The notes: generated by a model from the letters alone, not told the origin. Positions 15,103-18,492 are shown, numbered from the stretch's first letter. The stretch is DNA of 64,000 bases from Calditrichota bacterium (GCA_008501765.1 QQUE01000007.1:670186-734185), one strand, 5' to 3'. Translations and numbers: made by a program.

Positions 15103-16002
15103 TTACTTCAAAAACTGTTCTCTCGTTTTTTTATACTTAATTATATCAGTTATACGTTTTCTCTGTGATTCCGCTAAAGGGAGATTTAGTACATTTTCTA
15201 ATATTATCCATTTATAATCCGTTGACTCATGATCTAAAGATAAAGTACCATCAATAATTTTCCCTTCATAAACAATGGTGAATTCTTGCCTAACCTCACC
15301 ATCTGAATATTTTACTACAGTTTTGGGATTCGTATATGTACCAATCAAATTTAAAATCTCAACTTTATATCCCGTTTCTTCTTTGATTTCTCTAGTACAA
15401 CAGGTCACTAGATCTTCTCCAAATTCTAAGGTTCCTCCAGGAAGTGTCCAATTGCCGCTATCTTTTCGTTTTATAACTAATATTTGATTCTTGTCATTAA
15501 AAAGGGCAGCTGCGACTGCGGGTTTAATTGAATTAGGCTGTGGAGCATCGGGAGAATTGGTGTAATCAGTTCTAATAGTTTGAATTCCACGTTTCATCCA
15601 ATCTATAACATCATAATCTGGTTGAAGTTCAATTTTGTCATTTCCTATAGGTAATTTTATGAATAAAATTTTTGTACCTGTTTTAGATTTCTGAGCATAT
15701 TTAATACCAGGTTTAATTAAATAAAAGTCACCCTTCTTAAAACTAAACTCAGTTTTACTTTCAATATCTAAATATTTAGTGAAGCCTGATATCATGTATT
15801 GATATTCATAAGCTTGGGAATGTGTATGAGGCGATTCTATAGATGATTTATCATAAAATGTTATACCCATTTCTAGTTTCTCATCCTGAACATACTCAAG
15901 TAATTGCGGCTTTTTAAGCATCCCAACTAAATACTGGCGATAAGAATTTTTGAGACTTTTTTCTATATCAATGGCGCTAATCTTTATAATTTTCTTTTCC
16001 AT
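15103..16002 (-). CDS. Cupin-Nudix hydrolase fusion protein
   Basis: N-terminal cupin (ESPHTHSQAYEYQYMISG...KKGDFYLIKPGIKYAQKS), C-terminal Nudix box GTLEFGEDLVTCCTREIKEETGY (GX5EX7REUXEEXGU). Confidence 0.85.
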   Translation of the reverse strand: MEKKIIKISAIDIEKSLKNSYRQYLVGMLKKPQLLEYVQDEKLEMGITFYDKSSIESPHTHSQAYEYQYMISGFTKYLDIESKTEFSFKKGDFYLIKPGIKYAQKSKTGTKILFIKLPIGNDKIELQPDYDVIDWMKRGIQTIRTDYTNSPDAPQPNSIKPAVAAALFNDKNQILVIKRKDSGNWTLPGGTLEFGEDLVTCCTREIKEETGYKVEILNLIGTYTNPKTVVKYSDGEVRQEFTIVYEGKIIDGTLSLDHESTDYKWIILENVLNLPLAESQRKRITDIIKYKKTREQFLK

Positions 16003-16014
16003 AGTACTAACCTC

Positions 16015-18492
16015 TTATAGAAACATCAATCTATTGGTTAAGGGCTTTTTTTTACTTATTATTTGTTGAATAAGAAATACATCTTTTTTGTATCCCATAT
16101 TTTCTGCTAGCTCTCTAGTACTCTTTGCAAGTTTAACCCATCCTTTTTCTTTATTTACAATTTTGCATCTGATTAAGCCGATATTGACTTGTATTAATCC
16201 CCAAACCTGATTAATCTGACTATAAATTTGCTGTGCATCTCGGTAAGCTTCTTCAGCACTTCCTACATTACCTAACTGTAAAAAGCATTCGCCTAAGCCA
16301 AGGTGCGTGTGTCCAACCCATCCTTTTATCCCATGTTGGCTTGCTAAAGTTTGAGCATCTCTGAAGAGTTGTGCAGCCCTTTTATACTGATTCTTTTCGC
16401 GAGAAACTTCGGCTTTACAACATATTAAATATATCTCGTACCTTTGAAAATCATTATCTTTTGCTATATTTAGTCCCCAGTTACACATTTTATCAGATAT
16501 TTCTATGTGACCATAAAATTTCAATACTTCCGAATATTTTCTTAAAGACCTACACAGATAGCTTGGGTATTTTTTAGCTATTGCAAAGCGTATAGATTTT
16601 ATTAACCACTTTCGAGACAATTGAAAATCACCAGAAAGAATCCCTAAATTACCACCAATCATAAACAAAAGTTCACCATATCTCATTGGAAATTTATCTA
16701 TATCTATTTTTTCTGCTAGTTCTATCAAATCCTTAATTAAAGGGTTTACTGGTTTAAAGAACATCTGGTGGTGAACCCTGCGTATACTTAAATGCAATAG
16801 CTCATCAGATAAAAGAATTTCTTCCGATGAATATCTATTGAGATATTTTGTAATTAGTGCTACTGCCTTTTCATAATCACCTCTTAAATGTGTCATATCC
16901 ACGAATATACTAAAAAGTTTCACATCTAAATTTTGAAGGTTTAAGTAATCTATTGTTTCCTGTAGGAAAGTATGTAGAAAATCTGCCGCACCACATAATT
17001 GCAAATACTTGAGAAAAGTATACTTTTTATCAGACAGCCATTGCTGATAGTTACTTTTGGATAGGTGATTCATATGATGGTAATTTGCTTCTAAAAATAG
17101 ATCCATCAATGAATCTTGTGTATAGAGGTTTTTATTCGTTTCTAATTCATGGTCATAATATAATGCAATCAAACTATGTATTTTCTTCAAAAAACGTTTT
17201 TCTAGTACATGTTTCAACCCTTCTCTCATTAGATCATGAATAAAATATTGATCTTTTTCATGCTTGATAAATGAAAATCTATTGAATTCATCAAACTTAG
17301 AGAAGGGATATCCTACGTTAAATTCTGATATTAATAGTTCGAAAATCTCATAATTATAATAACGAGGTATTGAGAGTAGCTTCAGAGATTCAATTTCTGA
17401 TTCTTTCAAGTTTCTTAGAAAAAGATCTAGAATGTGTATGTTTCTAGAACTAAACTCTCGTGATACTATTTTTTTGCCTTGATTCTTTAACTCATAATAG
17501 GTATCAATAGCTAAGTCTAAATAATAGGGGTGCCCGTTACTTAAAGAGATGATTTTTTTTCTAATATTATTTTCAGCAATACCACAACTAACCAAAAATA
17601 AATCAGCGTCTTTTTCACTTAAATTATCAATTAAAAATTGTTTATTACAAGTTCCCCATTCTGGCTCAATTTCTTCCCACCGTAGTTTTTCTCTTCCCGA
17701 TATAACAAAAAGGATCCCAGGCAATTGCGCTATTAGTTCCCTTATCCATTTATCACGTGCAAACTGATTTGCTTCTGTTCGTCCACTTTCCCAAAGAGCT
17801 TCATAAGTATCAATAAAAATAACAAAACCAGGTATATTTTTTTTCTTAAGTGAACGTTGAATATCATAGGAGAAAAACGCGGGTAGGCGTTCTTCTATCT
17901 CAATAGTTGACATTTTTTCCAAATCAGTTAAGTCTTTTTTTACTTCCTTATCAAGTCCATACTTAGAAAATAATTTATACACTTTACCAACAATTCCTGT
18001 AACAGTTCCAGCGATACCTAGTCCGTCAAAAGCACCTAAAATATTTCCTAAAAGACTAGCTTCTTCTTCATATGGCAGATTTTTTTCATTAAAAACTAGG
18101 TCTGGATTTTTCTTTTTAAAGTAAATTGAATATGCAAGCTCAAAATGTGGTGTAATAACTTTTTTATTACTAACGATATTTCTTTTTAATTCTAAGAGTG
18201 CTCTTGACACTATGCGATACGAAGGATCTGCAAAATTTACTGCAGTACAAACTAAATTCGAATCGATATCAAGTAAATCTTTTTTCAATTGCTTTATCAA
18301 ACTACTTTTACCAACACCTCCAACACCATAAAACATTAATACTGAGTATGTTATATTAGCTTTCGTCCGAGGAGCTAATTGTTTTACCTTTTCAAAGAAG
18401 ATACTACGTTGCATCTCCCTATTAATAAACTCTTTATTTACATACCGTACTCTTATCTTTTTACCAACTTGATAATTTGGAGATATTGGCAT
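16015..18492 (-). CDS. STAND-type P-loop ATPase with C-terminal TPR-like repeats
   Basis: Walker A GVGGVGKSSLIKQL, Walker B-like FVIFIDTYEALWE, LFVISGREKLRWEE sensor-like motif, TPR-like C-terminus; ends 12 bp before the cupin-Nudix start. Confidence 0.8.
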   Translation of the reverse strand: MPISPNYQVGKKIRVRYVNKEFINREMQRSIFFEKVKQLAPRTKANITYSVLMFYGVGGVGKSSLIKQLKKDLLDIDSNLVCTAVNFADPSYRIVSRALLELKRNIVSNKKVITPHFELAYSIYFKKKNPDLVFNEKNLPYEEEASLLGNILGAFDGLGIAGTVTGIVGKVYKLFSKYGLDKEVKKDLTDLEKMSTIEIEERLPAFFSYDIQRSLKKKNIPGFVIFIDTYEALWESGRTEANQFARDKWIRELIAQLPGILFVISGREKLRWEEIEPEWGTCNKQFLIDNLSEKDADLFLVSCGIAENNIRKKIISLSNGHPYYLDLAIDTYYELKNQGKKIVSREFSSRNIHILDLFLRNLKESEIESLKLLSIPRYYNYEIFELLISEFNVGYPFSKFDEFNRFSFIKHEKDQYFIHDLMREGLKHVLEKRFLKKIHSLIALYYDHELETNKNLYTQDSLMDLFLEANYHHMNHLSKSNYQQWLSDKKYTFLKYLQLCGAADFLHTFLQETIDYLNLQNLDVKLFSIFVDMTHLRGDYEKAVALITKYLNRYSSEEILLSDELLHLSIRRVHHQMFFKPVNPLIKDLIELAEKIDIDKFPMRYGELLFMIGGNLGILSGDFQLSRKWLIKSIRFAIAKKYPSYLCRSLRKYSEVLKFYGHIEISDKMCNWGLNIAKDNDFQRYEIYLICCKAEVSREKNQYKRAAQLFRDAQTLASQHGIKGWVGHTHLGLGECFLQLGNVGSAEEAYRDAQQIYSQINQVWGLIQVNIGLIRCKIVNKEKGWVKLAKSTRELAENMGYKKDVFLIQQIISKKKPLTNRLMFL

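Follow-up and report, generated by a model that had tools for sequence, protein, structure and literature searches.

What an ATPase of the STAND type does when it carries no effector of its own, and whether the gene that directly follows it supplies the output, is the question raised by a two-gene operon of a Calditrichota bacterium. The operon lies in a stretch of 64,000 nucleotides, hereafter the window (QQUE01000007.1:670186-734185, assembly GCA_008501765.1). In an earlier note, made from the sequence alone, it had been read as a possible undescribed defence system, in which a STAND ATPase with a tetratricopeptide repeat (TPR) region acts as the sensor and a cupin-Nudix fusion as the effector in trans. 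In the following, the two proteins, the mobile unit that carries them and their distant relatives are described in turn, and the defence reading is weighed against other explanations of the same locus.

The two proteins of the operon

The main features of the two genes are:

16015..18492, minus strand: STAND P-loop ATPase with a TPR C-terminus and no fused effector (open reading frame, Pfam, predicted model, structure search and motifs)
18304..18327, minus strand: Walker A motif GVGGVGKS, residues 56-63 of the ATPase (motif position)
16150..16695, minus strand: TPR (MalT-like) sensor region, about residues 600-781 of the ATPase (PF17874 over cut-off, confident helical repeats in the model)
15103..16002, minus strand: protein of 299 aa with a probable cupin and a Nudix half (open reading frame, Pfam, predicted model and structure search)
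15643..15855, minus strand: probable cupin region, residues 50-120, with an HxHx4Ex6G motif (motif and weak profiles, below the Pfam cut-off)
15106..15573, minus strand: Nudix part with an APxPNS-type N-terminal motif, like that of actinomycete mobile-element Nudix enzymes (sequence comparison)
15370..15435, minus strand: intact Nudix box, residues 190-211 (motif position)

Both open reading frames start with ATG (at 18492 and 16002, respectively), each is preceded by a ribosome-binding sequence of the AGAGG type, and 12 bp separate the end of the first from the start of the second, in agreement with the two-gene operon originally described.

The first gene encodes 825 aa, and its description as a P-loop NTPase with a TPR-like C-terminus holds. 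Besides the Walker A motif, the other STAND core motifs are found at residues 225 (IFIDTYE) and 263 (VISGRE), and both the Walker A and the STAND-type Walker B region are common to the relatives of the protein. The individual Pfam NTPase profiles match only weakly, while TPR_MalT (PF17874) scores 47.3 bits over residues 665-780, its gathering score being 45. No PDB entry is matched by sequence; with the predicted model, whose pLDDT is a moderate 60 overall but which contains confident helical repeats at residues 620-780, the top PDB match of the structure search is the STAND-TPR protein 6mfv (E=3e-11), and Avs3 is found among the lower-ranked structural neighbours. As had been noticed, about 50 residues lie ahead of Walker A, and the relatives begin equally short; the N-terminus is thus too short to give room to an effector. 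Indeed, neither Pfam nor PADLOC assigns an effector family to the protein, PADLOC-DB 2.0.0 returns no match for it at all, and in Pfam searches and in the model there is neither a recognisable toxic domain nor a helix-turn-helix (HTH) or other DNA-binding output behind the TPRs.

The fusion proposed for the second gene stands firmly for one half and less so for the other. The C-terminal half is a Nudix hydrolase as judged by its box and predicted fold: the box (GTLEFGEDLVTCCTREIKEETG) fits the consensus GX5EX7REUXEEXGU, the Pfam profile PF00293 is matched over its cut-off (E=1.7e-20), and the Nudix fold is recovered in the structure search, with a pLDDT above 90 in most blocks. The N-terminal half is probably a cupin, on the basis of one motif and weak profile matches. 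Cupin motif 1 is present at residue 59 (HTHSQAYEYQYMISG) and a pattern search gave no motif 2; Cupin_2 matches with E=4e-4, below the gathering score, and a PDB cupin with E=2e-4, in a region whose predicted structure has a pLDDT below 50. The one PADLOC-DB 2.0.0 match of the protein, PDC-S07, was considered as a sign of defence and discarded, because arbitrary Nudix proteins taken as a control match it equally; being generic for Nudix proteins, it is no evidence of defence, and no specific match was returned.

An integron gene cassette

The operon travels as a single mobile unit, an integron gene cassette about 3.7 kb long, of which we infer the upstream boundary. The features that delimit this cassette and the next one are:

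18508..18571, minus strand: degenerate attC remnant ahead of the STAND gene (left flank, R'' of sequence TTTCTAAC, and CGCTAGC at the R' position, 15 bp before the ATG)
14833..14958, minus strand: attC closing the STAND/Nudix cassette (recurrence, arm pairing and covariation)
13866..14819, minus strand: gene for 317 aa in the next cassette, its ATG 14 bp after the attC; HEPN-like by eye only
13720..13849, minus strand: second attC, closing the cassette of the 317-aa gene (arm pairing, attC family)

The sequence that separates the Nudix gene from the following one is found again at other places of the genome and has the anatomy of an attC site, with TTCTAAC as R'', GACCGCAAAC as L'', GTTTGCGGC as L' and GCGTTAGAC as R'. 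Arms of the same site pair better with each other than swapped arms do, their own pairing ranking sixth among 720 permutations, and one site of the same genome (contig C14:351190-351317) shows a compensated change in the L arm (GACGGCAAAC / GTTTGCCGCC). A covariance model built from six sites retrieved one more site here and four in a congener, with E values from 6e-20 to 4e-4, which brings the family to seven members here, beside the four of the congener. An alignment of ten sites, which was fitted to the covariance model and thereby favours the structure, and which includes four sites not used in building that model, gives a covariation score of 0.148, a value reached by none of 500 shuffles; in the same alignment the true register pairs in 87% of cells, as against 25-36% for slid registers. 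The genome also encodes an integron integrase, which matches TIGR02249 with 448 bits against a cut-off of 265. When folded as free DNA strands the sites are not unusually stable, and the Rfam scan of the window returned nothing; given the unremarkable folding, the sites are called attC on the strength of covariation, recurrence and the presence of the integrase. The integrase gene is found near a contig end (C16:2424-3515, L073), and the 40 kb examined contain no R1-type attC; its own cassettes may lie past the contig end or be of another attC type.

The ATPase and Nudix genes have a GC content of 31.3-31.4%, that of the adjacent chromosomal genes being 44.6-50.5% and that of the window 42%. 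From this common value of 31%, and since no attC lies between them, the two genes apparently arrived together as one large cassette. The upstream limit is less sharp because the attC at that end is degenerate, keeping only the left flank, R'' and the R'-like CGCTAGC motif. Where the distance from an attC to the start of the gene behind it was checked, it is 14-17 bp, the two cases being the 317-aa gene and one for 346 aa on contig C15. About 45-75 bp located 5' of R'' are also conserved among cassettes of different gene content (window 18527-18571 and 14952-14992; L062, L063 and L064). The setting that had been called cassette-like is, therefore, literally that of an integron cassette, as indicated by the downstream attC and the integrase, and the accessory, mobile nature of the operon is supported.

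Genes associated with other attC sites

Several of the genes that accompany this attC family belong to types associated with biological conflicts. A CAP12/Pycsar TIR protein of 287 aa (PF10137, E=2e-40) ends just before the attC on contig C14 mentioned above (L188, L192), and a gene with an FRG domain (PDC-S15) and one with HSDR_N and RAMA domains are found beside the attC sites of contig C13, where the sites surround small open reading frames and the two genes lie immediately upstream (L166, 12300-18920). In the congener, two attC sites 0.9 kb apart (L190, G069:C728, 1018-2051) are accompanied by two gene pairs, Phd/YoeB lying between the sites or next to them and RelE/HTH next to the second, making this locus a small array of toxin-antitoxin cassettes. 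Some attC-linked genes are less remarkable and have no obvious part in defence, namely one for a membrane protein and one of the congener for an acetyltransferase.

The 317-aa protein of the neighbouring cassette has a homologue (29% identity, E=3e-29) on a Bradyrhizobium conjugative plasmid, with CBASS, AbiV and HEPN/Toprim genes a few genes away. Pfam gives no match for the protein, the HEPN label having been assigned by eye, and its similarity to the HEPN gene that adjoins a STAND relative in Priestia is not significant (E=0.089). Its inclusion in the STAND/Nudix system was considered and rejected as unproven, the gene being behind its own attC. Two further genes may be recorded here. The 346-aa gene of contig C15 (L173, 15484-16524), which begins 17 bp after an attC, contains the sequence DLRSQIVHSG and is HEPN-like by eye, with no Pfam match over cut-off; a plus-strand gene for a 149-aa nucleotidyltransferase of the DUF6036/AbiEii type is found near the cassettes, at 9768-10217 of the window. 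Integron cassettes are in general known as a rich source of antiphage systems; a passage of PMC12444791 that cites Darracq 2025 gives about 20% as the share of V. cholerae cassettes without predicted function that encode antiphage systems.

Relatives of the ATPase and of the Nudix part

The relatives of the ATPase are few and distant, with 22-33% identity. In 83 genomes of the phylum there is no similar copy, the other matches being short partial STAND matches, and profile searches of two outside phyla (349 and 394 genomes) each returned a single genome, the one from which the search was seeded. Single-sequence scans of IMG/VR and phages found no close relative, and alignment-based scans gave one contig only, L057 of IMG/VR, which carries the best relative of all (31% identity, E=1e-50). 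The ATPase gene of L057 directly follows a cluster of serine recombinase, GHKL ATPase, Vsr and DNA cytosine methyltransferase genes; its partner is not seen since the contig ends inside the gene. The region upstream of it (2346-7367) is compact, with genes for a GHKL ATPase, a Methyltransf_35 protein, Vsr, a cytosine methyltransferase and a protein of 300 aa.

Other relatives are found in various company. One on a Priestia plasmid has a HEPN-annotated gene directly before it and a type IV endonuclease of the Mrr type near, another has DUF1822 and CHAT genes downstream, and further ones are located with TIR and WD40 genes. In Nonomuraea gerenzanensis (L039, 5295-8885), a STAND-TPR relative is fused at its C-terminus to an ADP-ribosylglycohydrolase (PF03747, E=6e-38). 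The archaeal relatives have housekeeping neighbours, and some STAND relatives are without an obvious partner gene. These neighbourhoods, read without a background rate, suggest that the ATPase is a switch module that combines with varied outputs.

The Nudix part leads to a different group of elements. The best matches inside the phylum reach 91 bits, those on actinomycete and Thermoactinomyces plasmids 134-140 bits (38-44% identity), and those in IMG/VR contigs have 39-46% identity; at E<=1e-28 there is none in two other phyla (about 390-400 genomes each). The mobile-element relatives, which share with the present protein the APxPNS motif ahead of the Nudix domain, are stand-alone proteins of about 155 aa whose genes neighbour those of XRE or GntR regulators, of an HD protein or of an integrase. 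This arrangement resembles the mdp-nud-xre cluster known from actinomycete integrative elements, and Pif of pSAM2 is a Nudix protein of conjugal immunity that blocks redundant conjugal transfer (PMC3218068). By sequence comparison, the Nudix half is closest to the enzymes of actinomycete plasmids and integrative elements, that is, to the group of Pif, Pif itself not being among the compared sequences. The cupin-Nudix fusion was found nowhere else in the phylum, the two other phyla, plasmids, phages or IMG/VR. XRE-cupin proteins encoded next to such Nudix genes were considered as the origin of the cupin half and dismissed, the XRE protein of L042 consisting of an HTH and DUF5919, with no cupin.

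A sensor with an effector in trans?

The earlier note would have taken a lack of recurrence of the pair as a refutation, and on this point its proposal fares badly: the survey found the ATPase and Nudix genes together nowhere else, be it in the 83 genomes of the phylum, the two other phyla, plasmids, phages or IMG/VR, so that their functional link rests on one operon. Because the ATPase family is very sparse, the single occurrence lowers the case for defence and does not remove it. The evidence for defence is circumstantial, consisting of conflict genes at the attC sites and next to several relatives of the ATPase, and of the similarity of the Nudix half to mobile-element enzymes, and has against it the isolation of the pair and the lack of a match to any specific defence family. 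As the pair travels in a mobile cassette among other conflict genes, it is probably a small undescribed defence system. The division of labour that had been put forward is likewise plausible, in that several relatives of the effector-less STAND protein carry or adjoin different possible effectors, although here too the pair does not recur. The reading of the ATPase as a sensor of invaders that turns on the Nudix protein in trans is given a probability of about 0.5.

In such a system, the TPR superhelix of the ATPase would bind some trigger that a phage or plasmid brings in, and ATP binding would drive assembly of the ATPase. The assembled form would draw in the cupin-Nudix protein or switch it on, and hydrolysis of a nucleoside-diphosphate-linked molecule by the Nudix half would stop growth or block the incoming element. 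The trigger, the contact between the two proteins, the substrate and the defensive outcome are all part of this inferred scheme. A more specific version is offered very tentatively and considered unlikely. It is that of a new kind of mobile immune module, in which a STAND sensor works through an effector that has its own gene and can be exchanged, in this case a cupin-Nudix enzyme related to the Pif group. The whole would be packed into a single integron cassette and would give protection from plasmids or phages through the destruction of a nucleotide-linked metabolite.

Three other explanations deserve consideration. The cassette might serve metabolism or housekeeping, with the cupin as the sensor of a metabolite (a sugar or nucleotide), a Nudix half that clears some nucleotide, be it harmful or a signal, and the STAND protein as a MalT-like regulator of the process, which would make the cassette adaptive but not defensive. 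The MalT-like TPR region, the common use of cupin and Nudix folds in metabolite handling, and the membrane protein and acetyltransferase genes linked to other attC sites would all fit, but the TPRs are not followed by a DNA-binding output, the cassette contains no metabolic genes, and the restriction, HEPN and TIR genes that adjoin relatives of the ATPase point elsewhere; this explanation is judged rather doubtful. That the two genes are not one system at all, the STAND protein being a conflict element alone or with an unseen partner and the Nudix gene a passenger, would agree with the isolation of the pair, with the nearest Nudix relatives working with XRE or GntR regulators and not with STAND ATPases, and with the STAND relatives that have no obvious partner. 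Against it stand the spacing of 12 bp, the ribosome-binding sequence of each gene, the identical GC content of 31% and the one shared attC, with none between the genes; it is considered unlikely.

Nudix enzymes commonly remove nucleotide signals, and the roles could accordingly be reversed, the Nudix protein removing a trigger nucleotide and so holding the ATPase off in the manner of an antitoxin, with the toxic output residing in the ATPase or in an unlinked protein. The toxin-antitoxin pairs beside the attC sites of the congener would be in keeping with this arrangement. Since the ATPase has no recognisable toxic domain and its gene comes first, with the Nudix gene second, it seems very improbable.

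Relation to known systems

Antiphage STAND proteins of the Avs and bNACHT types carry fused N-terminal effectors. The present ATPase resembles these AVAST and bNACHT proteins in having a STAND switch with a C-terminal sensor, and differs from them in the absence of such an effector and of any PADLOC match. With MalT and PH0952 (6mfv) it has in common a P-loop STAND core and, behind it, a TPR superhelix as sensor, whereas it lacks a LuxR-type HTH or a fused effector, is accompanied by a separate cupin-Nudix gene and is very divergent. The Nudix part, in turn, is similar over its whole length to the actinomycete nud enzymes of the mdp-nud-xre type (38-46% identity) and shares their mobile-element context, but those are stand-alone proteins encoded beside XRE or GntR regulators, while the present protein has a cupin half fused to its Nudix part and a STAND ATPase as its partner. 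A precedent for Nudix domains among antiphage effectors is the transmembrane-Nudix protein Cap16 of CBASS, a membrane effector triggered by cyclic nucleotides, whose toxicity persisted when the Nudix domain was mutated (PMC10419184). The cassette itself is comparable to the antiphage cassettes of Vibrio and mobile integrons, being attC-bounded, accessory cargo of a conflict-rich kind in a genome with an integrase; however, there is no long array, the attC sites being single or paired and scattered away from the integrase, and the cassette is a large, two-gene one in a different phylum.

STAND immune proteins, mobile-element Nudix enzymes and integron defence cassettes are each already known. 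For their combination, or for a Nudix partner of an effector-less STAND protein, no precedent was found in the literature searched, which covered few subscription journals. If the defence reading is true, a Nudix-type output would join the STAND immune repertoire, in the form of a STAND switch whose effector is supplied in trans, and two-gene immune modules would be delivered by integron cassettes beyond those of Vibrio and of clinical integrons; the Nudix enzymes of conjugative elements, the group of Pif, would then be tied to antiphage-like immunity.
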